A stretch of 64,000 bases of DNA, from NCBI RefSeq assembly GCF_000258175.1, contig NZ_JH636049.1, forward strand, positions 1,326,982 through 1,390,981, given 5' to 3'. The translations under genes were made by a program, and so were the position numbers. Position 1 is the first letter of the stretch. Each line of letters starts with the position of its first letter. The notes beneath the pieces were generated by a model, which searched no databases, had not been told where the DNA came from, and saw nothing but the letters and a program-made list of their open reading frames with translations. This document shows, piece by piece, positions 2,628 to 55,702 of the stretch. Origin of the DNA: Saccharomonospora xinjiangensis XJ-54. GTDB lineage: Bacteria > Actinomycetota > Actinomycetes > Mycobacteriales > Pseudonocardiaceae.

Positions 2628-2759
2628 CGTGTCCGCAGTCTGTGCACACGTGTCCGCAGCCTGCGGCGCGGCCAGGCGAGAACTTCTGAGACACCCGCGC
2701 ACAAGCTGCGAACACCCGCGCACAAGCTGCAGGCACCCGTACAGGACCTGCGGACACGG
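2628..2759. repeat. Inverted 21-base-period intergenic array, locus 1
   Basis: It lies between the convergent stop codons of the emb gene and cobB. The left end reads CGTGTCCGCAGTCTGTGCAC and a second copy starts 21 bases later. After a short non-repetitive centre, three 21-base units in the opposite orientation follow (cores ACACCCGCGCACAAGCTG, AACACCCGCGCACAAGCTG, GCACCCGTACAGGACCTG), ending in GCGGACACGG. The outer ends are therefore inverted copies of each other. No coding potential is apparent. It could act as a bidirectional terminator or be a small non-autonomous repeat. The same signature recurs at four other loci in this window. Confidence 0.8.
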
Positions 2760-2767
2760 CGGCTGAG

Positions 2768-4180
2768 TCACTCCGGACCGCGGGCCGCCCAGCCGTGGAC
2801 GGCCGAGGCGAAGCGGCGGGCGACATCCGGGTGGCCCGCCCAGTGCACGTGCAGGTAGGAGGCATGCAGACTCGCCGAGGCGAACCCCTCTGCCCTGCCG
2901 TCCCACTCCCAGGCCGGGTTGGGCCCGTGACCAGGTTCGACGACGGTGCGGTGGAACTCGTGCCCGCTCACCCGCAGGCCGCGCGCGGCAAGGAGCGAGT
3001 CGCGGGGTGAGGTGGCTTCGCGGTAGCCGAGAGCACCGCCACCGCTCATCCGGCCTGCCGCGTCCAGCACCCCCGTCATCGGCATTCCATCGAGGTCGCG
3101 GCACAAATACAGCAGGCCGGCGCATTCGGCCACCACCGGCATGCCACGGGCGACGGCGTCCGCGATCGCGTCCCGCAGCGGCGTGTTGGCGGACAGCTCG
3201 GTCGCGTGTGTCTCGGGGAACCCACCGCCCAGGTACAGGCCGGAACAGCCTTCGGGCAACGTCTCGTCGCGCAGGGGATCGAAGTCCACGACGTCGATGC
3301 CCTCGGCGGCGAGTAGCTCCACCGTCTCGGTGTAGCGGAAGGTGAACGCCGCACCCGACGCCGCCGCCACACAGCGCCCGCCAGCCTGCCCGCCAGCCTG
3401 CCCGCCAGCCTGCTTGCTCACCTGCCCGTCTGTCCCTGCCAGCTCCCGCCGTGGCGGCTCCCACGGTTCGGCGGGAAGCGGAGGGGCCGACCGCGCCACG
3501 CGCACGACGGCGTCGAGATCCACCCCCGACTCCACCCACGCGGCCAGGCCCGACACCAGAGCCGGACCGTCGGCGCCACGCTCACCGGCGGGGACGAGCC
3601 CGAGATGCCGGTCGGGAGCCCGCAGCGACTCGTCGTAGGGCAGCACACCCAGCACGGGCACGCCGGTCCGGTCGAGTGCCTCGCGGATCTCCTCCTCGTG
3701 CCCTCGCGAGCTGACCCGGTTGAGAACGACGCCCGCGATGCGGACAGCGGGGTCGTACCGGGCGAACCCGAGCGTGGTCGCGGCGATGCTGCGGCTGGCC
3801 GTCCACGCATCGACCACCAGCACCACCGGTGCCGACACCAGAGTCGCGACGTGCGCCGTCGAGGCCGCCCCTCGCGTGCCGGGCGCGCCGTCGAACAGGC
3901 CCATCACTCCTTCGATCACGGCCACATCGGCTGACCGCGCACCGTGCGCGAGCAGAGGCGCCACCCGGTGCTCACCCTGGAGGATCGGGTCGAGGTTGCG
4001 GGGAGGCAGCCCCGTGGCCAGCGCGTGGTAGCCGGGGTCGATGAAGTCGGGACCGATCTTGTGTCCCGACACCACCAGCCCACGGGCCCGCAACGCGGCC
4101 ATCAGCCCGGTGGCGACACTGGTCTTGCCGTGCCCCGTGGCCGGTGCCGCGACGACGACTCTGGGGATTCTCACGACCAT
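2768..4180 (-). CDS. cobB: Cobyrinate a,c-diamide synthase (CobB/CbiA)
   Basis: It catalyses glutamine- and ATP-dependent amidation of the a and c carboxylates of the corrin ring in cobalamin synthesis. The N-terminal dethiobiotin-synthetase-like domain carries a P-loop variant (AAPATGHGKTS, residues 11-21) and SGHKIGPDFIDPGYH. The C-terminal class I glutamine amidotransferase domain has LYLGGGFPETH and the nucleophile Cys353 in VVAECAGLLYLC. The ATG at 4180 is preferred over upstream in-frame codons because GGGAGGTG lies just before it and the family begins with this hydrophobic strand. The protein is 470 residues, a normal length. A QAGG tandem repeat (residues 257-268) sits in the interdomain linker. 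No other cobalamin gene lies next to it here. It is divergent from the response regulator, 71 bases apart. Confidence 0.93.
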   Translation of the reverse strand: MVVRIPRVVVAAPATGHGKTSVATGLMAALRARGLVVSGHKIGPDFIDPGYHALATGLPPRNLDPILQGEHRVAPLLAHGARSADVAVIEGVMGLFDGAPGTRGAASTAHVATLVSAPVVLVVDAWTASRSIAATTLGFARYDPAVRIAGVVLNRVSSRGHEEEIREALDRTGVPVLGVLPYDESLRAPDRHLGLVPAGERGADGPALVSGLAAWVESGVDLDAVVRVARSAPPLPAEPWEPPRRELAGTDGQVSKQAGGQAGGQAGGRCVAAASGAAFTFRYTETVELLAAEGIDVVDFDPLRDETLPEGCSGLYLGGGFPETHATELSANTPLRDAIADAVARGMPVVAECAGLLYLCRDLDGMPMTGVLDAAGRMSGGGALGYREATSPRDSLLAARGLRVSGHEFHRTVVEPGHGPNPAWEWDGRAEGFASASLHASYLHVHWAGHPDVARRFASAVHGWAARGPE

Positions 4181-4251
4181 GTCCGGCACCTCCCCGCCGA
4201 CCGTAACGCACGCGCCGGAAGCGGCCGTCCGGCGTCGATAAGCTGCGGTCC

Positions 4252-12491: not shown

Positions 12492-12956
12492 ATGACATCG
12501 ACCCCAGGTTTGAGCCCGGCCACCCGCGCCCGTCTGGAACGCGAGCTCGAATCGCTGCGCCGGCAACGCGAATCCCTGGCGCCGAGGCTCGGTGAGGACC
12601 CGCTCGGTGACAGCGCCGACCAGGCCGACCTGCTGGAACGCGCGGAGGTGGTGTCACGGCTCGACCGGCGGATCACCGAGGTCATCGACCTGTTGCACGG
12701 TGGGCCCTCCGCTGAGCAGGAGGCAGGGCTGCCGTCCGGCACCCGGGTCACGTTGCGTTTCGACGACGGCAGCACCGAGGACATGACGGTGGTCGGTGTG
12801 GCCGACGAGGCCGAGGACGACGACACGTCGTCGCTGACAGCCGACAGCCCGCTGGGTCACGCGCTGGTGGGCCGCTCCGAGGGGGACACGGTCACGTACC
12901 GGACCCCTCGGGGCGAGGCCACAGCCCAGATCGTGAAACTCACCCCACCCGAGTAA
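12492..12956 (+). CDS. GreA/GreB-family transcription elongation factor-like protein
   Basis: This 154-residue protein has an N-terminal Arg/Glu-rich coiled coil (about residues 8-65, LSPATRARLERELESLRRQR) and a C-terminal Gre/Rnk-type domain with RVTLRFDDGSTEDMTVVGV and SPLGHALVGRSEGDTV. Gre factors insert a coiled coil into the RNA polymerase secondary channel to stimulate transcript cleavage. Actinobacteria carry divergent Gre-like paralogues with unproven activity, and this looks like one of them rather than housekeeping GreA. It follows tex by 45 bases in the same direction and converges on the hydrolase gene, with a repeat array between them. Confidence 0.8.
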   Translation: MTSTPGLSPATRARLERELESLRRQRESLAPRLGEDPLGDSADQADLLERAEVVSRLDRRITEVIDLLHGGPSAEQEAGLPSGTRVTLRFDDGSTEDMTVVGVADEAEDDDTSSLTADSPLGHALVGRSEGDTVTYRTPRGEATAQIVKLTPPE

Positions 12957-12975: not shown

Positions 12976-13103
12976 CGTGTCCGCACTTCTCGCACGCGTG
13001 TCCGCACTTCCCGCACAGGTGTTGGCACCGCACGACGCAAACACCCGTACGTAAACTGCGGACACGAACCGAAACGTCTCGTGTCCGCACCTCCCGCACG
13101 GGT
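12976..13103. repeat. Inverted 21-base-period intergenic array, locus 2
   Basis: It lies between the convergent stop codons of the GreA-like and hydrolase genes. Two 21-base units start CGTGTCCGCACTTC. They are followed by a centre with GGTGTTGGCA facing AAACACC, and by an inverted end GTAAACTGCGGACACG (to 13066). A further copy in the forward orientation, CGTGTCCGCACCTCCCGCAC, starts at 13080. The arms could pair into a hairpin. Nothing coding is seen. Confidence 0.8.
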
Positions 13104-13106
13104 GGA

Positions 13107-15128
13107 TCAGACACAGTCGCGCGGGATCACTCGGTCCCAGTTGCGCGATGAGACGCGCTTCGTTCCCTCGTAGGCGTCGAGCCGGGCGTGCAGGCGGAAC
13201 TCGGTGCGCGAGCAGGTGAGCTCCTGCCGCGTCACCGTGGTCGCCTCCCAATCGCCTCTGGCGAAGCCCATGGCCCACTCCGTCACTCCGCCGACCGTCT
13301 CGACATCGTCGGCCACCCAGCTGTACCGTTCGCGCGCGCACCGGGTGACTTCCAGATCGTGGTCCTCGAACACGAGGGTCCCCGAGTCCTTCACGATGTC
13401 GAGCGCCGACTCGTAGCGCACGAGGTCGCGGGACACCGTCCACGAGTGCCCGCCGGGACGAACCTGCCGCGTCACGATCGGAGTCGCCCCCTCCGGCTCA
13501 CCGAATTCGAGTACCGGTTCCTCCCCCGCGACCTCGCGCACAGGCAACACGAGTTCACTCGACGACGTCCACACCGACAGCCGTACCGGTTCGGGAGGAG
13601 GCCAGGCCAGCGGCCAGTACGACGACGACACCGAAAGGCGGATGCGGTGTCCCGCAGGGAAGCGCTGCGCGAGCACGTTGCAGTCCACCGTCACGCGGTA
13701 CCGCTCGCCCGGCTCCACCGGCTCCGGTCGTTCGTGCCCGTCACGGTGAGTGAGATTCAACAGGCCGTACGTCACCCGTGTGGCCCTGCCGTCGGGCAGC
13801 ACGTCGGACAGTCGCACCGCCACCATGGCCACCGGCCGGTCGGCGGCGATGTCTAGCGTCACGCGGGGCGCGCCGAGGACCTCGACGTCCTCGGCCAGCG
13901 GCTCCGTCTCGAACACGAGTGAGCCGCCGTCCTCCTCCCGCTGGTCGTACGGCAGGTCGGGGGGCGCGTTGTACGAGGCCCACTTCCCCGCGAACTGGCC
14001 GACCGACAACGGTGACTGCACCGTCAGCTCCTCGCGCGCGACATGCTCGCCCGGTTCGGCCAGCCGGTGCCGGGCCAAGGGGAAGGCGGCCGGCCGCACG
14101 TTCGGCGACGGCCATTCCGGTTCACCCACCCAACGCCCCGGCCGCTGGTGGTAAGAGGTCGAGGGCGGAACGCTGTCCTGCATCCACGTCACCAGCATGG
14201 GCCCGTCGAGCACACCGTTGTCCTCGCCCTTCAACCAGTGGTCCCACCACCGCACGAGCTCTTGCAGGTAGCCGATCGCGGGGCCGGGCTCGCCGAGGTG
14301 CGGGTATTTGTGTGACCACGGTCCGATCAACCCCTTGCGCGGCACGTCCACGTTCGCCAGCAGCCGCGCGACAGCGTTCGAGTAGCCGTCCGCCCAGCCG
14401 CTCGTCGCGAGTACCGGGCATCTCACGTCCGCGTAGGTCTCGTTGACCGACGCGTGCGTCCAGTAGCTGTCGCGCCGCTGGTGCCGCAGCCACCTGTCCA
14501 CCCACGGGCCGGAGGCCTCCAGCCGATCGCGCCACATGTCGCGCCACCGCTCACCGACCAGCTCGGGGTCGGGAGGCAACGTGCTGTAGGCGAACATGGT
14601 TCCCGACTCGGCGAGGTTGTCGGAGAGCAGGCAGCCGCCCATGTAATGGAAGTCGTCGGCGTAGCGGTCGTCGGTGAACGACGAGATGGCGATGGCTCGG
14701 AGGTTCGGTGGTTGCCTCGCAGCCACCTGTAACGCGGCGAACCCGCCCCACGAAATGCCGAACATGCCCAGCTCGCCCGTGCACCACGGCTGGCGGGCCA
14801 GCCACGCGAGCACATCCTCGGCGTCCCGCTGCTCCTGTTCGAGGTACTCATCGATAAGCACCCCCTCCGACTCCCCTGTGCCCCGCATGTCCACGCGCAC
14901 ACAGGCGTAGCCGTGCCCCGCGAGATACGGGTGGTGGATCGAATCGCGAATGGCCGTGAGGTCGCGCTTGCGGTACGGGATGTACTCCAGCAGACCGGGC
15001 ACGGGTTCGCGGTCGGATGTCACGGGCCGCCAGATCTTCGCGGCGAGCCTCGTCCCGTCCGAGACGGTGATCCAGACATGTTCGTCGGCGGTGATGTCGC
15101 AGGGCAACGAGCTGACCTCGCGAAGCAC
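13107..15128 (-). CDS. CocE/NonD-family alpha/beta hydrolase
   Basis: This 673-residue serine hydrolase is of the X-Pro dipeptidyl-peptidase (S15) / CocE class. The nucleophile elbow is GISWGGFAAL with Ser126. The N-terminal part carries LLEYIPYRKRD and VRVDMRGTGESEG. The C-terminal jelly-roll domain (roughly residues 390-673) includes HRIRLSVSSSYWP. Members cleave esters or amides, including peptides and beta-lactams, so the substrate is open. The GTG at 15128 is supported by AAGGAGG eight bases upstream. It lies 42 bases downstream of the ATP-grasp gene on the same strand, so the two probably form an operon in which one enzyme makes and the other cleaves an amide or ester. That pairing is inference. 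Confidence 0.9.
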   Translation of the reverse strand: MLREVSSLPCDITADEHVWITVSDGTRLAAKIWRPVTSDREPVPGLLEYIPYRKRDLTAIRDSIHHPYLAGHGYACVRVDMRGTGESEGVLIDEYLEQEQRDAEDVLAWLARQPWCTGELGMFGISWGGFAALQVAARQPPNLRAIAISSFTDDRYADDFHYMGGCLLSDNLAESGTMFAYSTLPPDPELVGERWRDMWRDRLEASGPWVDRWLRHQRRDSYWTHASVNETYADVRCPVLATSGWADGYSNAVARLLANVDVPRKGLIGPWSHKYPHLGEPGPAIGYLQELVRWWDHWLKGEDNGVLDGPMLVTWMQDSVPPSTSYHQRPGRWVGEPEWPSPNVRPAAFPLARHRLAEPGEHVAREELTVQSPLSVGQFAGKWASYNAPPDLPYDQREEDGGSLVFETEPLAEDVEVLGAPRVTLDIAADRPVAMVAVRLSDVLPDGRATRVTYGLLNLTHRDGHERPEPVEPGERYRVTVDCNVLAQRFPAGHRIRLSVSSSYWPLAWPPPEPVRLSVWTSSSELVLPVREVAGEEPVLEFGEPEGATPIVTRQVRPGGHSWTVSRDLVRYESALDIVKDSGTLVFEDHDLEVTRCARERYSWVADDVETVGGVTEWAMGFARGDWEATTVTRQELTCSRTEFRLHARLDAYEGTKRVSSRNWDRVIPRDCV

Positions 15129-16439: not shown

Positions 16440-16482
16440 GCTGTCGGGGGTTTCCTGGCCCCTTCCGGAGTAAACGCTCGCG

Positions 16483-16634
16483 CGTGTCCGCAGCGTGTGC
16501 ACGGGTGTTCGCAACTTGTGCGCAGGTGTTGGCAGGCGATGCGCGCGTGTTGGCACGCCATGACCGTGTCCGCATCTTGTGCACGGGTGTTGGCAGCCCA
16601 CGGTGCGAACACCCGTACAGGAAGTGCGGACACG
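16483..16634. repeat. Inverted 21-base-period intergenic array, locus 3
   Basis: Forward units begin CGTGTCCGCAGCGTGTGCAC (16483), GTGTTCGCAACTTGTGCGC, GTGTTGGCAGGCGATGCGC, GTGTTGGCACGCC and CGTGTCCGCATCTTGTGCAC. The centre GGGTGTTGGCAGCC is followed by the inverted units CGAACACCCGTACAGG and AAGTGCGGACACG (16634). It fills most of the space upstream of the ATP-grasp gene and downstream of the DinB-like gene, both on the minus strand. Pairing of GGGTGTT with AACACCC predicts a hairpin. Confidence 0.8.
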
Positions 16635-16688
16635 ATGCCGGTCTTATGTCGCTCGGTCAGGCCGTTCTTACGTCGGCTTCACGCCGGT

Positions 16689-17204
16689 CTATACCCCGAC
16701 GGTGCCGTCCACTCCCTCGCGGAGGAGGTCGGCGTGCCCGTTGTGGCGGGCGTACTCGTGGATGAGGTGAAGCATCACGAGCCGCAGCGACACGTGCTCT
16801 CCCGAGCGCGGTTCGTATCCGGTGACGTCGAGAGATGCCGCCTGCCGCTCGATCCGGCGGGAGTGTTCGACCTCCGCTTCCCACGCCGCGAACGCCTCCG
16901 CACGCGTGGCCGTGCTCGCGTCGTACGCCACCTGGTAGTCGCCGTCGGCGGACCACACCAGCGGCACGTCCTCGGCGTTGATCACACGCCGGAACCAGGC
17001 GCGTTCCACTTCGGCCAGATGGCGCACGAGCCCCAGTAGCGACAGGGTGGAGGACGGTACGGAACGGCGGCGCAGGTCGTCGTCGGACAGCCCCTCACAT
17101 TTCAACGCGAGAGTGGCGCGGTGATAGTCGAGGAACGCGCGCAACGTCTCGCGCTCGCTACCGCGGAGTGGCGGGGTAGGCCGGGGATCGGGCTGATTGG
17201 GCAT
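16689..17204 (-). CDS. DinB/DUF664-type four-helix protein
   Basis: This 171-residue protein of the DinB-like/YfiT superfamily opens MPNQPDPRPTPPLRGSERET. It contains LRAFLDYHRATLALKCEGLS, LLGLVRHLAEVERAWFRRV and the closing LVMLHLIHEYARHNGHADLL. The three histidines in H-x3-E and HEYARHNGH positions are the usual divalent-metal ligands of the family. Actinobacterial members include mycothiol-dependent enzymes, so a thiol-transfer or detoxification role is possible but not shown. The ATG at 17204 matches the family start. It is flanked by repeat arrays on both sides. Confidence 0.88.
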   Translation of the reverse strand: MPNQPDPRPTPPLRGSERETLRAFLDYHRATLALKCEGLSDDDLRRRSVPSSTLSLLGLVRHLAEVERAWFRRVINAEDVPLVWSADGDYQVAYDASTATRAEAFAAWEAEVEHSRRIERQAASLDVTGYEPRSGEHVSLRLVMLHLIHEYARHNGHADLLREGVDGTVGV

Positions 17205-17284
17205 GCGGGTAGTCAACCACGTCGATCGCACGGCTGACCGGGCCTCCGGGGGCGTACGGGCAAAAGTCTCCGAGAAAGCCGTGC

Positions 17285-17557
17285 CCGGCCTGCCGACACC
17301 AGTGCGCCGCCTACCGACACCCGCGCACAACTGCCGACGCCCGTGTTCAGACTGCCGACACCGGCGCGCAGACTGCCCACCTTCGTACAGAGACCGCTGA
17401 CACTGGTACGTAAGAGAAACTGACACCCGCCGGTGCTCAGCCTGCCGGGATGTGTACACACATTGCCAAACCTGTGCCCACACTGCAGAAACCCGTGCCC
17501 GGAGTGCCTACACCTGCACACAGACTGCCAACACCCGCGCACAGACTGCGGACACGG
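17285..17557. repeat. Long degenerate 21-base-period array, locus 4
   Basis: About twelve units, all in the orientation TGCCGACACCCGCGCACAGA with variation, run from roughly 17285 to the terminal ACTGCGGACACGG (to 17557) right at the stop codon of the NDH-2 gene. Several units keep exact 21-base spacing (for example those starting TGCCGACGCCCGTG and TGCCGACACCGGCG), while the middle drifts. No forward half-array is seen here, so this locus appears to be a one-sided array. It occupies the whole gap between two minus-strand genes; no gene is visible in it. Confidence 0.75.
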
Positions 17558-18853
17558 TTACTTCTTGCCCGCGGCCTCCCGGAAGGCTCCGCGTGGTTCC
17601 TCGCGGGAGCCGAAGTTCACGACGTCATGGCCGAACGGCATGCCGACGACCCAGTCGCCGAGCACGCGCACCGTGCGGTTCCACGTCGGGATCTGGGTGG
17701 CGTAGTACGCCCTCCGCAACGTCCACGCCAGTGAGCCGTTCACCTTGTGGCCGAGCACCTGGCCCACGGCCTTGTTCTTGCCCAGCGTGACGAACTCGCC
17801 CCTGCTGTTGTAGCGGAACGGCTTCACGGCCTGTCCCCGCAGAGTGAGCAGCAGGTTCTCCCCGAGTTGCTGCGCCTGCCTGACCGCGTGCTGCGCGGTG
17901 GGCGGGCAGGTTCCGCCCTTCTCAGGGTCGGGCACGGCGGCGCAGTCACCTGCCGACCAGATGTTGGCGTGGCCGTTGACCCGCATGGTGTCGTCCACGA
18001 CGAGCCTGCCGCGCTCGTCAACGGGGAGCCCGAGTTCGCCGACGATCGTCTGCGGCCGGGTTCCCGCGACCCACACCAGCGTGTCGGACGACAGCTTCGT
18101 TCCGTCCGACAGTCGCAAGACCCTGTTCTCCGCCGATTCCAGCAGCGTGCCAGTGCGGATGTCGATGCCCCGCGCGGTGAGCTCGGTCGTGGCGAGTTCC
18201 GCGAGGTCGGCATCGACGGTGCCGAGGATGCGGTCCATCGCCTCCACGAGGATCCAGCGCATTTCCGACCGATCGACCTCCGGGTACCCCTCGAGGACGT
18301 CGATGGCCATGTCCTGCAACTCCGCGATGGCCTCGACCCCGGTGTATCCGCCACCGACGAACACGAACGTCAGCGCGCAGCGGCGCAGCTCCTCGTCGGT
18401 GGTCGCGGCGGCGATCTCCAGTTGCCTCAGAACGTGGTCGCGCAGGTGCGCGGCCTCCGCGAGGGAGTTGAAGCCGATGCCGTTGTCGGCGAGGCCGGGA
18501 ATGGGCAGCAACTTCGACGTCGCGCCCAGGGCCAGCACCAGTTCGTCGTACGGCAGCGAGAGAGCGGGCCCTGCCATGGGCTGCACCGTGGCGGTCGCGC
18601 GGTCGGTGTCCAGATCGGTCAGCGCCCCGGAGATGAACCGGGCCCTCCGCAACACCGCACGCAGCGGCACGACGGCGTGCCTCGGTTCGAGCGTGCCCGA
18701 CGCCACCTCGGGCAGCAGCGGCCGGTACACCATGTAGTTCTCCGGGTTGATCACCGTCACCTCGGCCTCGCCCTGCCGTAGCCCTCGCTGGAGTCGCAGC
18801 GCGGTGTAGAGGCCGACATAGCCGCCCCCGACGATCAGAATGCGTTTCGGCAC
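17558..18853 (-). CDS. ndh: Type II NADH dehydrogenase (NDH-2) family FAD oxidoreductase
   Basis: This 431-residue pyridine-nucleotide-disulfide oxidoreductase is likely to oxidise NADH and reduce menaquinone at the inner membrane face without proton pumping. The FAD Rossmann motif is ILIVGGGYVGLYTALRL at the N-terminus, the NADH-binding motif is FVFVGGGYTGVEAIAEL near residues 165-181, and the flavin-contact segment is IWSAGDCAAVP. The C-terminal region (about 350-410) has GKNKAVGQVLGHKVNG and amphipathic stretches expected for membrane association. A ferredoxin-type or other quinone reductase activity is less likely. It appears to be a single-gene unit; DUF6480-type gene lies upstream on the same strand. 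Confidence 0.9.
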   Translation of the reverse strand: MPKRILIVGGGYVGLYTALRLQRGLRQGEAEVTVINPENYMVYRPLLPEVASGTLEPRHAVVPLRAVLRRARFISGALTDLDTDRATATVQPMAGPALSLPYDELVLALGATSKLLPIPGLADNGIGFNSLAEAAHLRDHVLRQLEIAAATTDEELRRCALTFVFVGGGYTGVEAIAELQDMAIDVLEGYPEVDRSEMRWILVEAMDRILGTVDADLAELATTELTARGIDIRTGTLLESAENRVLRLSDGTKLSSDTLVWVAGTRPQTIVGELGLPVDERGRLVVDDTMRVNGHANIWSAGDCAAVPDPEKGGTCPPTAQHAVRQAQQLGENLLLTLRGQAVKPFRYNSRGEFVTLGKNKAVGQVLGHKVNGSLAWTLRRAYYATQIPTWNRTVRVLGDWVVGMPFGHDVVNFGSREEPRGAFREAAGKK

Positions 18854-42816: not shown

Positions 42817-42932
42817 AAGCCCCACCTCTCCATCGCTCAGACGAGCGCTTTGAAGAAAGATCCGTCTCAGATGTGCAGGCATTGAACGACCGAACCGGCC
42901 ACGACGTCAACATTGCCCCGAAAGATCGGCGC

Positions 42933-42938
42933 TATAGT
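42933..42938 (+). promoter_or_regulatory. Putative -10 element (TATAGT) of a leaderless regulator gene
   Basis: TATAGT is followed by six bases and the ATG at 42945, with no ribosome-binding site. This indicates a leaderless transcript for the SorC-type regulator. Confidence 0.55.
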
Positions 42939-42944
42939 GCTCAC

Positions 42945-43928
42945 ATGAGCGCGAGTAATCGATCGTGGTCCCTGCTCGATGCCGTCGAGGCAGCCGCCAT
43001 CGCCCACCGCTTCTACGTCCGGGGCGAATCGAAGCTGGAGATCGCGAACGATGTCGGCAAGAGCCGGTTCAAAATCGCCAGGGTGCTTGAGCGGGCGCTG
43101 CACGAGGGCCTGGTGCGGATCGAGTTCTCCCTACCGGAGCCCGTCGATGTCGCGCTGTCGGAGGAGCTGCGTTCGGCATACGGACTCCGCAGGGCATTCG
43201 TGCTCGAACGAGCGGAGAAGGCCGAAGCGCGGCCCGTGCTCAGGCAGCGCATCGGCTCACTGGCCGCCCGCCTGCTGTCGGAGATCGTCACCGACGAGGA
43301 CGTCATCGGCCTGTCCTGGGCGCGCTCGGTGAACGTCATGACCGAGCACATCCGCACGCTGCCGCGCTGCCCGATCGTCCAGCTCTGCGGTGTCCAGGCC
43401 GGCCTCGACAGGCGCGACCGGTCGGTGGAGACGGTGTCCAGGCTGGCGGGTGTGTCCGGCGGCGAGTCCTACCCGATCTACGCGCCTCTCGTGCTGCCGG
43501 ACCGCAGAACCACGGACATCCTCCGCAGGCAGCCGGGCATCGTCGAAACGTTCCGGCGGTTCCGCGATCTCACCAAGGCCGTGGTGAGCATCGGTGCGTG
43601 GCAACCGAACGAGTCCACTGTGTACGACGCGCTGTCACCGGCGGAGCGGGAGTCCATCGCGAAGCGGGGCGCGAAGGCCGAGGTGGCGGCGCGGCTGTTC
43701 GACGCCGACGGCAACGCGCTCGACACCGGCCTTTCGCACCACGTGCTCGCGATCAGCCACGAGGAGCTGCGCCGGATTCCCGAGGTGATCGCCCTCGGCT
43801 ACACCACTCCCAAGGCCGAGGCCGTGGACGCCGTGCTCCGCTCCGGCACGGTGAGCACCCTGGTCACAGACCACGACACCGCGCGCAGAGTCCTCACGCT
43901 CGCGGAACGCCGCCCCCCGTCGCGCTGA
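42945..43928 (+). CDS. SorC/DeoR-type sugar-binding transcriptional regulator
   Basis: This 327-residue regulator has an N-terminal helix-turn-helix (AAIAHRFYVRGESKLEIAND, VGKSRFKIARVLERALHEGL). The C-terminal sugar-phosphate sensor domain has VIGLSWARSVNVMTEHIRTL, AVVSIGAWQ and LGYTTPKAEAVDAVL. Proteins of this kind respond to phosphorylated or free polyols. It is divergent from the dehydrogenase and ABC operon and is its likely regulator. A perfect 21-base repeat array starts directly after its stop codon. Confidence 0.92.
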   Translation: MSASNRSWSLLDAVEAAAIAHRFYVRGESKLEIANDVGKSRFKIARVLERALHEGLVRIEFSLPEPVDVALSEELRSAYGLRRAFVLERAEKAEARPVLRQRIGSLAARLLSEIVTDEDVIGLSWARSVNVMTEHIRTLPRCPIVQLCGVQAGLDRRDRSVETVSRLAGVSGGESYPIYAPLVLPDRRTTDILRRQPGIVETFRRFRDLTKAVVSIGAWQPNESTVYDALSPAERESIAKRGAKAEVAARLFDADGNALDTGLSHHVLAISHEELRRIPEVIALGYTTPKAEAVDAVLRSGTVSTLVTDHDTARRVLTLAERRPPSR

Positions 43929-43930
43929 CC

Positions 43931-44145
43931 CGTGTCCGCACCTCCCGCACCCGTGTCCGCACCTCCCGCACCCGTGTCCGCACCTCCCGCACCCGTGTCC
44001 GCACCTCCCGCACCCGTGTCCGCACCTCCCGCACCCGTGTCCGCACCTCCCGCGCGGACACGGACGACAAGTGCAGGCAACCGTGCGTGGAGTGCAAGAG
44101 CCTGTCCGTGAGGTGCCAACACCCGTGCGTCAGGTGCGGACACGG
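43931..44145. repeat. Inverted 21-base-period array with six near-identical copies, locus 5
   Basis: Six head-to-tail copies of a 21-base unit start at 43931, 43952, 43973, 43994, 44015 and 44036. Each reads CGTGTCCGCACCTCCCGCAC plus one base; the last runs into GCGCGGACACGG. After a short segment, degenerate units in the opposite orientation follow (GCAACCGTGCGTGGAGTGCA, CCTGTCCGTGAGGTGCCA, ACACCCGTGCGTCAGGTGCG), ending in GCGGACACGG at 44145. The near-identity of the six copies indicates recent expansion, in contrast to the older inverted arm. Confidence 0.9.
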
Positions 44146-45142: not shown

Positions 45143-47626
45143 TCACGGACGTTCGATCTGGTGGCCCACCACGTCCGGCCCGGGGTGAGCGGCGCCTGAA
45201 CCGTCCCTTCGAAGGTCCACCTGGGGCAGCTCGACCGCTTCACCCCGCTTCGACGACCCGACAGGACGTGGCCCCACCCAGGCGAGCACGAGTCCCTTCT
45301 CACCTGTGAGGAAGCGGTGCGCGCGCACCCCCGCGGTGGCCCTGCCCTTGGCCGGATACTCCGAGAGCGGCGTGACCTTGACGGTCTCGCCGGTGGCCGT
45401 CACCACCATCGGCTCACCGTGCTCGGCGTCGTCACCGCGCACCGCGCCGAAGAACACCACCTCGGCGGCCTTGCCGAGCGCGATACCCGCGATGCCGCCG
45501 CCCCGCAGACCCTGCGGTCGCACGAGTGAGGCGTCGTACCGCAGCAGCGCGGCCTGCGACGACACGAACGTGAACGTCTCCGTGCCGTCGGTGAGCCAGG
45601 TGGCGCCGACCACCTCGTCACCCTCTCTGAGGCTGATGACGTCGAACTCGTCAGCCCGCACCGGCCAGTCGGGCGCGCACACCTTCACCACGCCCTGCCG
45701 GGTGCCGAGAGCCAGGCCCGGCGAGCCTTCCGCCTGCTCTCCCAGCGGCGCGAGCCCCACAACGCGCTCGTCGCCCTCCAATGGCACGAGTTCCCGCGCT
45801 GGCATCCCCCCGCGCAACGACACGGTGCCGGACGACTGCGGCAGCACGGGCAGCGGCAGCACGTCGGTCTTGAACGCCCTGCCCCGGCTGGTCACTAGCA
45901 GTACCTGGCCGCGCGCGGTGGTATGGACCATGGCGGCGATCGCGTCGTGCTTGGCCCTGCCGCTGCGCCTTCGTCCCTCGACGGCCTCCTCAGACTCGGC
46001 CGCAGTCCTCGCGACCAAGCCGGTGGACGACAGGATGACCTGACACGGGTCGTCGGCCACTTCGAGCGGACCCGCGGGTTTCGACGCCTCCAGAACCTCC
46101 TTGAGGTCGCCGTCGATGAGGGAGGTGCGGCGCGGGCTGGAGAACTGCTTGGCCACGGCGGCGAGTTCCCTGGAGACGACTCGCTTCAGCACCTTCTCGT
46201 CGTCGAGGATTGCCGTCAGTTCCGCGATCTCCTCGCGGAGGCGCTCCTTTTCGGACTCCAGTTCGATCTTGTCGTACTTGGTGAGCCTGCGCAGCGGCGT
46301 GTCGAGGATGTAGGTGGCCTGGATCTCGGACAGCGCGAAGCGTCTCATCAGGCCTTCCTTCGCGGCCTTGGCGTTCTCGCTCCCCCGGATCAGCTTGATC
46401 ACCTTGTCGATGTCGAGGAGCGCGACGAGCAGACCCTCGACGAGGTGCAGGCGGTCCTCGCGCTTACGCCTGCGGTACCGCGTGCGCCGCGTGACGACCT
46501 CGTACCGGTGGGCGAGAAAGACTTCGAGAAGTTCCTTCAGCCCGAGCGTGCGCGGCTGACCGTCCACCAGCACGAGGTTGTTGATGCCGAACGACTGTTC
46601 CAGCGGAGTGAGCCGGTAGAGGTCGGCGAGCAGTGGCTGCGGGTTCACCCCGACCTTGCACTCGATGACGAGCTTCGTGCCGTTCTCGCGGTCGGTGAGG
46701 TCCTTGACGTCGGCGATGCCGGAGAGGCGTTTCGTCTTGTTGACCTCGTCGGTGATCCGCTCGATCACCTTCTCGGGGCCGACGCCGTAGGGCAGTTCGG
46801 TGACGGTGATGCCCTGCCTTCGGCTGCCCTCGATGGGGCCTGTGGTGACCTTCGCCCGCATCCGCACGACGCCGCGCCCGGTCTCGTACGCCTTGCGCAC
46901 CTGGTCGAGCCCCAGCAGGTGCCCACCGGTGGGCAGGTCGGGGCCCGGGACGAACTCCATCAGCTTGTCCAGTGAGGCGTTCGGGTGGTTGATCAGCCAC
47001 CGCGCCGCGGCCACGACCTCGCCGAGGTTGTGCGGGATCATGTTGGTGGCCATGCCGACCGCGATACCGGAGGTGCCGTTGACGAGCAGGTTCGGAAACG
47101 CCGAGGGCAGCACCGACGGCTCGGCCAGCGATCCGTCGTAGTTCGGCCGGAAATCGACGGTCTCCTCGCCCAGCTCGCCCACGAGCAGCATGGCCTCCGG
47201 CGACATGCGGGCCTCGGTGTAACGGGACGCGGCGGGTCCGTCGTCGGGGCTTCCGAAGTTGCCGTGCCCGTCCACCAGCGGCACGTTCATCGAGAAGTCC
47301 TGAGCCAGCCGCACCATGGCGTCGTAGATCGCCGTGTCGCCGTGCGGGTGGTAACGGCCCATCACATCGCCCACGACGCGGGACGACTTCACGTAGGCGT
47401 GATCGGGCCGGTAACCGTTCTCGTGCATCGAGTAGAGGATGCGGCGATGGACCGGCTTCAAGCCGTCCCGCGCGTCGGGCAGCGCGCGAGAGTGGATGAC
47501 CGAGTAGGCGTACTCCAGGTAGGAGTCCTCGATCTCGGTCTTCACCGGGTTGTCGAAGACCCGCGCGCCCGCCCTGTCGAAGGCGGAGGGATCGACGCGG
47601 GTGGTCGGGTTCTTACGCCGTGCCAT
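45143..47626 (-). CDS. parC: Type IIA topoisomerase subunit A (ParC-like)
   Basis: This 827-residue breakage-reunion subunit has LPDARDGLKPVHRRILYSMH, GRYHPHGDTAIYDAMVRLAQ, and the catalytic tyrosine Tyr136 in AASRYTEARMS. A long coiled-coil stretch around residues 430-500 and a C-terminal DNA-wrapping region follow. In the quinolone region, Thr98 is at the position of GyrA Ser83. It lies 27 bases downstream of parE. Actinobacteria such as Streptomyces have this second, ParE/ParC-like enzyme besides gyrase. The sequence cannot prove decatenation preference. Confidence 0.92.
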   Translation of the reverse strand: MARRKNPTTRVDPSAFDRAGARVFDNPVKTEIEDSYLEYAYSVIHSRALPDARDGLKPVHRRILYSMHENGYRPDHAYVKSSRVVGDVMGRYHPHGDTAIYDAMVRLAQDFSMNVPLVDGHGNFGSPDDGPAASRYTEARMSPEAMLLVGELGEETVDFRPNYDGSLAEPSVLPSAFPNLLVNGTSGIAVGMATNMIPHNLGEVVAAARWLINHPNASLDKLMEFVPGPDLPTGGHLLGLDQVRKAYETGRGVVRMRAKVTTGPIEGSRRQGITVTELPYGVGPEKVIERITDEVNKTKRLSGIADVKDLTDRENGTKLVIECKVGVNPQPLLADLYRLTPLEQSFGINNLVLVDGQPRTLGLKELLEVFLAHRYEVVTRRTRYRRRKREDRLHLVEGLLVALLDIDKVIKLIRGSENAKAAKEGLMRRFALSEIQATYILDTPLRRLTKYDKIELESEKERLREEIAELTAILDDEKVLKRVVSRELAAVAKQFSSPRRTSLIDGDLKEVLEASKPAGPLEVADDPCQVILSSTGLVARTAAESEEAVEGRRRSGRAKHDAIAAMVHTTARGQVLLVTSRGRAFKTDVLPLPVLPQSSGTVSLRGGMPARELVPLEGDERVVGLAPLGEQAEGSPGLALGTRQGVVKVCAPDWPVRADEFDVISLREGDEVVGATWLTDGTETFTFVSSQAALLRYDASLVRPQGLRGGGIAGIALGKAAEVVFFGAVRGDDAEHGEPMVVTATGETVKVTPLSEYPAKGRATAGVRAHRFLTGEKGLVLAWVGPRPVGSSKRGEAVELPQVDLRRDGSGAAHPGPDVVGHQIERP

Positions 47627-47652
47627 GACTTGGTCGTCGCTTTCCTGTGTCG

Positions 47653-49710
47653 TCAGATGTCGATCGCGGCCTGGTCAACCCTCGCGGCCGACGTGATGAG
47701 CCACTTCCTGCGGGGTTCGACCTTCTCGCCCATGAGCAACTCCAGCGCGGCCTCGGCGGCGTCTGCGTCGTCGAGGGTGATGCGGCGCACCGAGCGGGTC
47801 GCCGGGTTCATCGTGGTCTCCCACAACTCGTCGGCGTCCATCTCGCCGAGTCCCTTGAACCGGGGCACCGGCTTGACGACCTGCTTACCCGACCGTTCCA
47901 GCTCGGCGACCTTCGCCTCCATCTCGCGCTCGGTGTAGGTGTAGAAGGTCCGGGAGTCGCGCCCCTTCGTGGTGATCTTGTGCAGCGGCGGCATGGCCGC
48001 GTAGAGCCTGCCCTCGGCGATGACCGGCCGCATGTACCTCGCGAACAGCGTGATCAGCAGCGTCCGAATGTGGGAGCCGTCCACATCGGCGTCGGCCATC
48101 AGGATCACGCGGCCGTAGCGCATGGTCGAGATGTCGAACGTCCGCCCCGTCCCCGCTCCGAGTACCTGCACGATCGACGCGATCTCGGCGTTCTTGAGCG
48201 CCTCACCGAGGTTGGCCTTCTGCACGTTGAGGATCTTGCCGCGCAGTGGCAGCAGCGCCTGGTACTCCGACACGCGCGCCATCCTCGCCGAGCCGAGCGC
48301 GCTGTCACCCTCCACGAGGAACAGTTCACTGCGGGCGATGCCGGTGCTGCGGCAGTCCACGAGCTTCGGCGGCATGGCGGCGCCTTCGAGCGCGGTCTTG
48401 CGCCGTGCCGCGTCCTTCTGCTGCTTCTGCGTCAGCCGCACGCGCGAGGCGTCCACGATCTTCTGCAGCACCGTCTTGGCCTCGGTGCGGCTCCTGCGGT
48501 TGTCGGCCCACGCTTTGATGTGCTTTTCGACGAGCCCCTGCACCACCTTGGTGATACCCGAGGTGGACAGCTCGTCCTTGGTCTGCGACGTGAATTGCGG
48601 CTCGGGGATGCGCACATGCACCACAGCCGTGAGTCCCTCGCACACGTCGTCGAGGATGGGCGGCTCCTCCTTGGCCTTGAGCAGCCCACGGGTTTTCGAG
48701 ATGGCGTCGTGGACGGCCCGCACGAGACCCCGCTCGAAACCCTTCCTGTGCGTTCCACCGTGGACGTTGCGGATGGTGTTGGTGAAGCACTCGACGGTGC
48801 GTTCGTAGCCGGTTCCCCAGCGGAGCGCCACCTCGACCTCGGCCCGCCGCTCCACATTGGACTGCATGACTCCGTTGGCGTCGGCCGCGTTCTCCTTGTA
48901 CGTCCCCTCGCCGGTGATGAACTGGGTCTCACACACGGCGCGGTCACCAGAGGGCGCGAGAAACTCCACCATGTCGGCGAGCCCGTTGGGGTAGTGGAAG
49001 GTCTCCTCGTTGATGGCCGAGTCGGTGGCGGTGCGCAGCACGTACGTGACGCTGGGCACCAGGAACGCGGTGTGGCGCAGCTTCGCGCGCACGAGGTCCA
49101 CGTCGAGCTGCGCGCCGCGTTCGAAGTAGCGGGCGTCGTACCAGTAGCGGACGGTGGTGCCGGTGGATTCACCACGCTTCATCTTCCGCACGAAACGCAA
49201 CCCGGACTGCGGGGTGAACTTCGCCTTGGGGCCGGGACCGTCGAAGATTCCCGGCACACCACGGGCGAACGACATCTCGTGAACCTTGCCGCCGTACTTC
49301 ACCGTGACGTCGAACCGCAGCGACAGCGCGTTCACCGCCGAGGCGCCGACACCGTGCAGACCGCCGGACGTCTTGTACCCGGAGCCGCCGAACTTGCCGC
49401 CCGCGTGAAGGCGCGTCAGCACGAGTTCCACACCGCTGAGACCCGATTTGCCGTGGGTGTCGGTGGGGATGCCACGCCCGTCGTCGGCGACCTCCACACT
49501 GCCGTCTGCGTGCAGCGTCACCACGATCTTCGTCGCGTGCCCCGCGACGCCCTCGTCCGTCGAGTTGTCCACGATCTCCGTGAACAGGTGGTTGACCCCG
49601 CGACTGTCGGTGGACCCGATGTACATACCCGGCCGCTTGCGCACCGCTTCGAGACCTTCGAGGTGCGTGAGGTCGTCGGCCCCGTAGAGGTTCTCAGCAG
49701 AGACAGTCAC
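47653..49710 (-). CDS. parE: Type IIA topoisomerase subunit B (ParE-like)
   Basis: This is a 685-residue ATPase subunit. The GHKL ATP-binding domain has LEAVRKRPGMYIGSTD, VDNSTDEG, VADDGRGIPTDTHG and GLHGVGASAVNALS. The transducer follows, then the TOPRIM domain with LVEGDSALGSARM and MADADVDGSHI. The C-terminal end has PRFKGLGEMDADELWETTMN. The start is GTG at 49710 with GGGAG nine bases upstream. It forms an operon with parC. The Y-family polymerase gene lies upstream in the same direction. Confidence 0.93.
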   Translation of the reverse strand: MTVSAENLYGADDLTHLEGLEAVRKRPGMYIGSTDSRGVNHLFTEIVDNSTDEGVAGHATKIVVTLHADGSVEVADDGRGIPTDTHGKSGLSGVELVLTRLHAGGKFGGSGYKTSGGLHGVGASAVNALSLRFDVTVKYGGKVHEMSFARGVPGIFDGPGPKAKFTPQSGLRFVRKMKRGESTGTTVRYWYDARYFERGAQLDVDLVRAKLRHTAFLVPSVTYVLRTATDSAINEETFHYPNGLADMVEFLAPSGDRAVCETQFITGEGTYKENAADANGVMQSNVERRAEVEVALRWGTGYERTVECFTNTIRNVHGGTHRKGFERGLVRAVHDAISKTRGLLKAKEEPPILDDVCEGLTAVVHVRIPEPQFTSQTKDELSTSGITKVVQGLVEKHIKAWADNRRSRTEAKTVLQKIVDASRVRLTQKQQKDAARRKTALEGAAMPPKLVDCRSTGIARSELFLVEGDSALGSARMARVSEYQALLPLRGKILNVQKANLGEALKNAEIASIVQVLGAGTGRTFDISTMRYGRVILMADADVDGSHIRTLLITLFARYMRPVIAEGRLYAAMPPLHKITTKGRDSRTFYTYTEREMEAKVAELERSGKQVVKPVPRFKGLGEMDADELWETTMNPATRSVRRITLDDADAAEAALELLMGEKVEPRRKWLITSAARVDQAAIDI

Positions 49711-54955: not shown

Positions 54956-55702
54956 TCAGGCCGGAACGCCGTCGCCCCGCAACTCGGCGAAGAAACGACC
55001 GATCTCGTGCCATACCTCGTCACCTCCTGTCATTCCGCTCCACGTGCCGCGTACCCGCGCGACGAGCCGGTAGCACTCGTCGATGCCCAGGAGCCACTGC
55101 TCGCCGATGTCACGGTGCACGAGCAGTGCCCTCACCTCGGGTTCGAGCCTCGAAAGCGACGGCTGCTTGCGCACAAGGCGTTCCCACGCCTGCGGATCGA
55201 CGTCCGTGCCGACCACCCCGAGTGGGCTCGGGTAGTACGCCATCACGGTCGTCCCCTCACCGGCGCCGGAGGCGTCAGCATCGTGACCGTCGTCACCGCC
55301 GTCACCGCCGTCACCATCGTCACAGTCGTCACCGGTATCCGGCTGCTCCCGCGTCACGTCGTCGTGCCGCACGAAGAACGCGAGTCCCACAGGCACCCCG
55401 AGCGCGGCCCACCCGACGTCGTCCACCGGGGTGCCGGGCAGTCGTTCGCGGGACTCCGGCACGGCGCGGTAGCGGCCCGCTCGCGCGTTCGCGCGGTCGA
55501 ACAACACAGCGCACGCCCTGCACGCACACGACAGTTCCCTCGACGGCAACCGCAGCAGGTGCCGGTGCGCATCAGGCACGATCTCCCCGCACAACTCGCA
55601 CCGATGGCGTTCCTCGGCGGAGCCGGTGGCGGCGCGAGCCAGCTCCCGGAGCCTGCCGAGGGGCAACGGCCGGGTCACGCTCTCCGTGACAGGCCCCTTC
55701 AT
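54956..55702 (-). CDS. DUF5947-type zinc-ribbon-like protein of hydrogenase operon
   Basis: This 248-residue protein has two cysteine clusters near the N-terminus (Cys35 and Cys38 in RCELCGE; Cys59, Cys61 and Cys64 in CACRAC), likely a metal-binding site. DDVGWAALGVPVGLAFFVRH follows, and the C-terminal part has LEPEVRALLVHRDIGEQWLL and GIDECYRLV. Residues 118-150 form an Asp/Gly-rich insert. The family accompanies actinobacterial group 1h hydrogenases. Its ATG overlaps the stop of the NifU-like gene. Confidence 0.82.
   Translation of the reverse strand: MKGPVTESVTRPLPLGRLRELARAATGSAEERHRCELCGEIVPDAHRHLLRLPSRELSCACRACAVLFDRANARAGRYRAVPESRERLPGTPVDDVGWAALGVPVGLAFFVRHDDVTREQPDTGDDCDDGDGGDGGDDGHDADASGAGEGTTVMAYYPSPLGVVGTDVDPQAWERLVRKQPSLSRLEPEVRALLVHRDIGEQWLLGIDECYRLVARVRGTWSGMTGGDEVWHEIGRFFAELRGDGVPA

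Follow-up and report, generated by a model that had tools for sequence, protein, structure and literature searches.

Short repeated sequences and terminators at bacterial gene ends are known in several forms. REP and BIME elements, with their RAYT transposases, are present in many intergenic copies, mostly at 3' ends or between convergent genes, and mix direct with inverted units. The uptake sequences DUS and USS are strongly conserved 9-10-mers which often stand at gene ends as an inverted pair, serving as a terminator. Actinobacteria have I-shaped and X-shaped hairpin terminators, and protein-roadblock terminators are represented by Sal-box/TTF-I arrays and DnaA-box blocks. CRISPR repeats, about 25-40 bp in length, are separated by unique spacers. 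The arrays described here, from a 64-kb stretch of the Saccharomonospora xinjiangensis XJ-54 genome (the window), share the gene-end position of several of these systems and are built from a directional 21-bp unit in tandem.

Architecture of the arrays in the window

A preliminary description had reported five arrays with a 21-base period; all five were found where it had placed them, and each exact copy of CGTGTCCGCA found in the window falls within one of them. The unit consensus is GTGTYSGCA-N6-G-YA-S (21 bp); it is directional and consists of GTGTCCGCA followed by a 12-bp spacer. The main structural elements are listed in Table 1. TRF reports 43928-44053 as 21-bp tandem units with 100% match, and the hairpin at 44036-44062 folds at about -21 kcal/mol (40-nt window). 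The order of forward followed by inverted units, claimed for four of the five arrays, holds for those at 2628, 12976, 16483 and 43931, except that 12976-13103 has one more forward unit after the inverted one; the array at 17285-17557 is inverted only. Pairing of the array centres (GGGTGTT with AACACCC) is good in 16483-16634, and other junctions are found elsewhere (44036-44062, 13057-13089). That the arrays lie exclusively between genes, as had been thought, is uncertain for 16483-16634, which on its left borders on the start region of the gene at 15171-~16502(-), a gene whose exact start is itself uncertain. The array at 2628..2758 has a counterpart in the sister species G362. Rfam at gathering score gave 0 matches across the window.

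Table 1. Arrays of the 21-bp unit and their parts, in window coordinates
Feature	Position	Strand	Description
Two-armed array	2628..2758	.	Occupies a convergent intergenic region; separated by 3 nt from the stop codon of the gene that ends at 2624(+) and by 9 nt from that of 2768-4189(-)
Array	12976..13103	.	Inverted units with forward ones on either side; lies in the intergenic region of the convergent pair 12510-12956(+) / 13107-15128(-)
Hairpin in array 12976..13103	13057-13089		TGCGGACACGA-11 nt-TCGTGTCCGCA
Array	16483..16634	.	Two inverted units following six forward ones; apex GTGTTGGCA-8 nt-TGCGAACAC; on the right, 54 nt separate it from the stop of 16689-17144(-); on the left it reaches the start region of 15171-~16502(-)
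Inverted-only array	17279..17556	-	Long, largely degenerate; best-conserved unit separated by 1 nt from the stop of 17558-18853(-)
Forward arm	43931..44056	+	Six tandem 21-bp units CGTGTCCGCACCTCCCGCACC, unit six with differing last bases; begins 2 nt past the stop codon of gene 42873-43928(+)
Local hairpin	44036..44062	.	CGTGTCCGC-9 nt-GCGGACACG; last forward core and inverted core
Inverted arm	44102..44144	-	Two units, cores TGCCAACAC and TGCGGACAC; outer end TGCGGACACG

Two further features of the window may be mentioned. Other short tandem repeats at 55273-55334 and 3376-3428 (9-bp CGTCACCGT, 12-bp GCCCGCCAGCCT) are unrelated to the 21-bp family. A second GyrA-like gene (45143-49710, - strand) has 42-43% identity to another GyrA copy, which is situated ~10 kb into the records of several relatives and, in the host, ~8 kb from dnaA; the gene adjoining the second GyrA-like gene may be a candidate GyrB-like partner. 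Matches to the second GyrA-like protein are split at residue ~133, in an intein-like manner, in G144, G251, G125, G037 and G377.

A genome-wide family

The pattern GTGTCCGCA-N12-GTGTCCGCA, allowing up to 2 mismatches, has 220 forward and 212 reverse matches (432) in the 4.78-Mb host genome; the reversed pattern, used as a control at the same mismatch limit, has 1 + 4 = 5. The single 10-mer at 1 mismatch is mildly enriched in the window (25 vs. 16.6 expected, reached by 3 of 100 shuffles). The array family is beyond chance because the 21-spaced pair is hugely enriched genome-wide. The preliminary description had taken the arrays for a real repeat family, and the genome-wide search bears this out: it gave many copies, mostly intergenic and often abutting stop codons, rather than a few copies or copies placed at random inside genes.

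The host sample, 101 pieces adding up to 2.06 Mb or 43% of the genome, comprised the window and 100 20-kb stretches from all over the chromosome; 1841 genes were called in it by our own codon-usage caller, for which gene starts are uncertain. In this sample CGTGTCCGCA is intergenic in 180 of 190 cases, intergenic bases accounting for 13.6%, and the commonest distance between neighbouring cores is 21 bp (134 cases), with a second peak at 42 bp (16 cases). A core-based rule defines about 56 arrays: 23 are in convergent, 28 in tandem and 2 in divergent context, while 2 of the 56 that overlap called genes and 1 at a stretch edge were left out of the context counts. Of the two genic arrays, one is that at 16483 in the window, while L240 looks like a chance cluster. 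By extrapolation from 56 arrays in 43% of the genome, each genome would hold over a hundred loci.

No real array was seen in the 13 consecutive sampled stretches L228-L240 (G000:C2, about 3.53-4.12 Mb); a few exact matches of the pattern are present there, so this is a depletion and not an absence. In S. piscinae, long runs of identical units at L049 and L057 are broken by N (assembly gap or masking), and the longest arrays may therefore be under-counted in draft genomes.

Distribution among relatives

The family was found in all 6 sampled genomes of the genus and is patchy in nearby genera. Named carriers among the matches listed are Saccharomonospora piscinae, Saccharomonospora sp. NB11 and the actinomycete MAG DX1.bin91. 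S. piscinae has at least 67 loci and DX1.bin91 at least 34, both being biased samples since they were fetched for three exact cores; loci from other genera were likewise picked for a match. With the relaxed core, G144 has 126 matches and G251 103; G427 has 59 at 1 mismatch, and G334 and G455 have few copies. There was no match to the array pattern in 383 of the 397 genomes of the order, and isolated matches in G156, G243, G145, G347 and G386 look unrelated, judging from the matched letters and from one G386 locus. Of the 14 out-of-lineage loci among the matches listed, the 11 that were examined are all unrelated simple tandem repeats. Elsewhere among the 397 genomes of the order, the family was not convincingly found.

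RpoC identity places the array-bearing genera among those nearest to the host's; near genomes without arrays are G027, G125 and G255, the last being of the same genus as G455. At three of the four loci of other genera examined, the units follow closely after a stop codon, and at the fourth, L303, a hairpin-like sequence lies between the stop codon and the units. The one array searched against phage and plasmid collections (window 16480-16640) gave no match.

Comparison of orthologous regions

Using profile-defined arrays, 225 adjacent-ortholog regions were compared between the host and G362: both species have an array in 12, the host only in 3, G362 only in 1 and neither in 209. Array positions are thus mostly common to both species. 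A MITE-like mobile repeat was one suggestion of the preliminary description; an active element is not favoured, as both species carry an array in 12 of the 16 array regions of the G362 comparison. Of the four regions that disagree, two are without any unit in the other species and two have one there. In the comparison with G227, a more distant relative (99 regions), both genomes have an array in 1, the host only in 3 and neither in 95; no unit is present in the three, and 5 of the 7 discordant regions pooled from the two comparisons (4 and 3) are without any unit in the relative. None of the discordant regions showed a clean insertion or excision by eye. Copy number and spacers differ throughout between host and G362 arrays.

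By the strict core, which misses degenerate cores, 22 of 52 arrays in the host and 43 of 71 in S. piscinae have units in a single orientation; two-armed arrays have terminal inverted repeats. Adjacent units are more alike than shuffled units in the host, S. piscinae and DX1 and not in G362 (16 pairs), and 26 of 134 neighbour pairs in the host are identical. Long modules are common to arrays at different loci, as in L183 and L188, which are 85% alike over 199 bp where we estimate that ~75% is expected from the cores alone; the likeness of this pair extends no more than 15 bp past an array edge. Among 1321 cross-locus alignments of at least 60 bp, a number inflated by shared cores, 32 continue beyond the array by over 20 bp at both loci; one of these pairs consists of neighbouring arrays with overlapping flanks. 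The similar stretches at different loci suggest that units are exchanged between loci.

Constraint on the unit and its spacing

Constraint was assessed in 129 neighbour-unit pairs lying between intact cores 63 bp apart, so that a unit's own core was unselected (five sets pooled). Mismatch per site is 0.00-0.06 at GTGT (positions 0-3) and GCA (6-8), 0.10-0.12 at the two middle core bases and 0.20-0.29 at positions 9-14; it is 0.01 at 15 and 18, 0.10-0.12 at 16-17, and 0.24 and 0.20 at 19-20. The spacing is similarly restricted, with 134 of 141 core spacings of 14-28 bp (2.06 Mb) being exactly 21 bp and 7 being off. The 134 pairs at 21 bp hold 486 spacer substitutions, a ratio of substitutions to spacing changes of 69:1, compared with 5.5:1 (1915 substitutions, 350 gap events) in 99 array-free orthologous intergenic pairs, a comparison that is possibly biased since units with lost cores or larger indels escape the count. 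Taken together, the per-unit constraint and the rarity of spacing changes point to a factor that reads each unit and minds the helical phase, and hence probably to recognition of double-stranded DNA. The earlier proposal of a protein bound to every unit on one face of the DNA gains support from these two properties.

Placement at gene ends and polarity

By a profile-based rule, arrays are present in 26 of 299 convergent, 30 of 1138 tandem and 2 of 303 divergent gene pairs (convergent vs. divergent, Fisher p 9e-7). In tandem pairs, once the length of the array is taken off, a gap of <50 bp remains in 2 of 30 cases, compared with 52% of array-free gaps (p 1e-7); these residual gaps indicate that the arrays lie at transcription-unit ends and avoid operon interiors. 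The idea of a terminator, also put forward earlier, is strengthened by this placement.

The arrays also have a preferred polarity. Within 60 nt past the 1708 stops of the host sample, the first exact core is sense in 46 cases and antisense in 8, and 42 of the 46 sense cores are within 20 nt of the stop codon. The sense and antisense counts elsewhere are 72/21 in S. piscinae, 22/10 in DX1, 14/4 in G362, 7/1 in G227 and 25/2 in other genera, the stop-codon sets of S. piscinae, DX1 and the other genera having been chosen for holding arrays and those of the host, G362 and G227 not. When the profile is relaxed and the distance widened to 120 nt, the unit met first downstream of host stops is sense in 58 and antisense in 27, and upstream of starts the numbers are 12 and 16, respectively. 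One-armed arrays in tandem context are sense in 36 and antisense in 13 (six sets); overlapping or edge arrays were dropped from the polarity count (1 in the host, 10 in S. piscinae, 12 in DX1, 2 in G362, 2 in G227 and 4 in other genera). Polarity is therefore a preference and not a rule.

The commonest leader directly before the core is TGA-CGCC or TGA-CACC (32 cases, six sets pooled). In six genes of the same sets it is TAG-CC, which looks like the unit's own TAGCC end serving as the stop. Genes ending at an array have a TAA stop in 10 of 46 cases in the host sample, as against 4% of all stops.

Hairpins and RNA pairing

Many arrays contain a hairpin, often at the junction of two arms. A local hairpin with dG <= -18 is found in 26 of 30 two-armed arrays in the host and 23 of 28 in S. 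piscinae, with median values of -22.5 (shuffled, -16.4) and -25.5 (shuffled, -17.9), respectively; in S. piscinae the junction GTGTNNGCA-8 nt-TGCNNACAC has 14 matches. Only 12 of 22 one-armed arrays in the host and 17 of 43 in S. piscinae contain such a hairpin, and some of these folds are in the flanks. An intrinsic terminator in every copy was rejected, since a stable stem-loop is present in no more than these fractions of the one-armed arrays.

Pairing between arms or between adjacent units is likewise unsupported. The arm spacers are without pairing covariation, their likeness being below that of shuffled spacers in the host (0.525 vs. 0.585, 23 arrays) and S. piscinae (0.637 vs. 0.695, 28 arrays); DX1 (7 arrays) goes in the same direction and G362 (4 arrays) has no difference. 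Complementarity of adjacent units is not above that of shuffled ones. From these spacer and complementarity tests, neither an arm-to-arm nor a unit-to-unit hairpin is the common design, although hairpins as such are frequent.

In convergent regions, a strong single hairpin is found in 17 of 23 regions with arrays (shuffled, 17%) and in 56% of 125 array-free regions (shuffled, 37%), the array regions being the longer ones. An apparent scarcity of strong hairpins at array ends (34-nt windows, threshold -20: 4 of 40 vs. 36% of 150 array-free convergent ends) was reversed by this whole-region test, and the hint that arrays replace canonical hairpins was not upheld, as whole array regions have more of them.

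A possible role at transcription-unit ends

The explanation that we tentatively prefer, and which may quite possibly be correct, is that the units are sites at which a putative sequence-specific factor, probably one that binds DNA, ends or insulates transcription. Each array would mark, as a boundary element, the 3' end of a transcription unit, and the 21-bp unit would be a recognition site, repeated every two helical turns and read singly by one factor. The factor is most likely a double-strand-DNA-binding protein coating one face of the array; that it is a protein, that it would recognize DNA rather than RNA and that it would affect transcription we infer from the constraint, spacing and placement described above. 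Sense units beside the stop codon would act on that gene and the inverted units at the far end on transcription arriving from the opposite side, so that convergent pairs would get a two-sided barrier. The two-armed junction often forms a stable RNA hairpin, which could add intrinsic termination, and ordinary hairpin termination may account for some of the effect, given the frequent local hairpins in two-armed arrays. A rigid block 2-4 bp past the stop would be expected to stall the polymerase too early, when the stop codon is not yet transcribed, and a roadblock of this kind should thus be leaky or deeper-acting: the array would yield at first and halt the polymerase further in, a possible reason why several units are needed. 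Recurrence of the unit and of its post-stop placement in other genera counts in favour of a boundary element; counting against it are the incomplete polarity and the comparison with G227, in which the relative lacks the array in 3 of 4 cases.

The arrays could instead be a functionless repeat, arising by slippage and copying between loci and accumulating in 3' intergenic space, where it is least harmful. Such a repeat would account for the likeness of adjacent units (26 of 134 neighbour pairs identical), the modules common to loci such as L183 and L188, the patchy copy number among relatives and the absence of any unit from the relative in 5 of 7 discordant syntenic regions. We consider it unlikely, however, as the core and positions 15 and 18 are near-invariant while the adjoining spacer bases vary, the host and G362 both carry an array in 12 of 16 array regions despite replaced spacers, and exact cores within 60 nt past the stop cluster at 2-20 nt. 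Constraint, spacing and convergent bias would also fit a chromosome-organising site, to which a nucleoid protein or topoisomerase binds at unit ends where transcription supercoils gather, termination not being its job; E. coli BIMEs, which bind gyrase, are a precedent. This is rather unlikely in our view, since it does not require the sense preference beside the stop codon, and the window's second gyrA-like gene does not track the arrays. The second GyrA-like protein was rejected as a partner of the arrays: relatives with at least 79% identity are present in 25 of 33 searched genomes, many of them array-free.

The sense preference and the adjacency to stop codons would also be expected if the units act as RNA in the 3' UTR, be it as terminator hairpins or by binding a ring-like factor that recognizes RNA. 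The small-loop apex of two-armed arrays (e.g. GTGTCCGCA-YCGYRCGR-TGCGGACAC, with 14 matches in S. piscinae), the strong local folds and the strong single hairpin in 17 of 23 array-bearing convergent regions vs. 56% of 125 array-free, shorter ones are in line with it. On the other hand, arm spacers in the host and S. piscinae resemble each other less than shuffled ones do, adjacent units do not exceed shuffled ones in complementarity, many one-armed arrays are without a strong hairpin, and most RNA readings need no strict 21-bp spacing; an RNA element is accordingly improbable.

The preferred reading of a boundary element can be put in a more far-reaching form, as a dedicated bacterial termination or insulation system in which one putative protein polymerises on 21-bp sites right after stop codons, at over a hundred unit ends and two-sided at convergent genes, older than the genus and with a freely evolving number of units. 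In this form it is doubtful, if well worth considering. If it were true, gene ends would be set by tandem protein-binding arrays and not by hairpins or degenerate Rho sites, which would be relevant to high-GC actinobacteria, whose signals for termination are little understood; each genome would offer more than a hundred natural replicates, differing in unit number, for testing this directly. Whatever their function, the arrays are kept at many gene ends while their spacers turn over, and so provide a model for concerted evolution of bacterial non-coding DNA.

Comparison with known systems

The arrays look functionally like REP/BIME elements, paired uptake sequences and hairpin terminators, yet the defining features of these fail: there is no Y1 match, the unit is not palindromic, a hairpin is not general and Rfam gives no match. 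None of the titles listed in searches of the open-licence literature describes these 21-bp repeats. Nine 'CRISPR repeats' appear in a table of the S. viridis genome paper (PMC3035233) and might be arrays of this type. The arrays described here do not fit the CRISPR pattern, as a 9-bp core with 12-bp related spacers at a 21-bp period does not make CRISPR-type repeats.

With REP/BIME elements and their RAYT the arrays have in common the intergenic copies at 3' ends and between convergent genes, and the mixed orientation of units; they differ in their unit, a directional 21-mer repeated in strict tandem that often directly abuts stop codons. A palindromic REP unit was rejected, palindromes being found at arm junctions. 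The Y1/RAYT transposase (PF01797) has 0 matches in the host genome, which gives no support to the REP-like element of the preliminary description, and it is matched in 2 of the 6 genus genomes though arrays are present in all 6. The resemblance to DUS/USS lies in a strongly conserved 9-10-mer, often as an inverted pair at gene ends, whereas the core here is overwhelmingly intergenic and, in the window, confined to 21-bp arrays, and is not spread through coding sequence. I-shaped and X-shaped terminators are similar in their gene-end position, convergent use and stable hairpin, the last being present at many array junctions; here, however, the hairpin is not in all arrays, and the conserved part is the repeated unit.

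The array core agrees at 7 of 9 positions with TTGTCCACA, which we take to be the DnaA box. Exact same-strand pairs of TTGTCCACA occur at 6 places in the host, none near dnaA (G000:C2: 877736, 1173131, 1181324, 1631076, 2735892 and 3072517; five are spaced 18-19 bp). Protein-roadblock terminators, such as those of Sal-box/TTF-I and DnaA-box type, share with the arrays the sequence-specific sites downstream of a gene and their preferred orientation; the arrays differ from them in that the protein is here putative, and in their number, which by extrapolation exceeds a hundred loci per genome.
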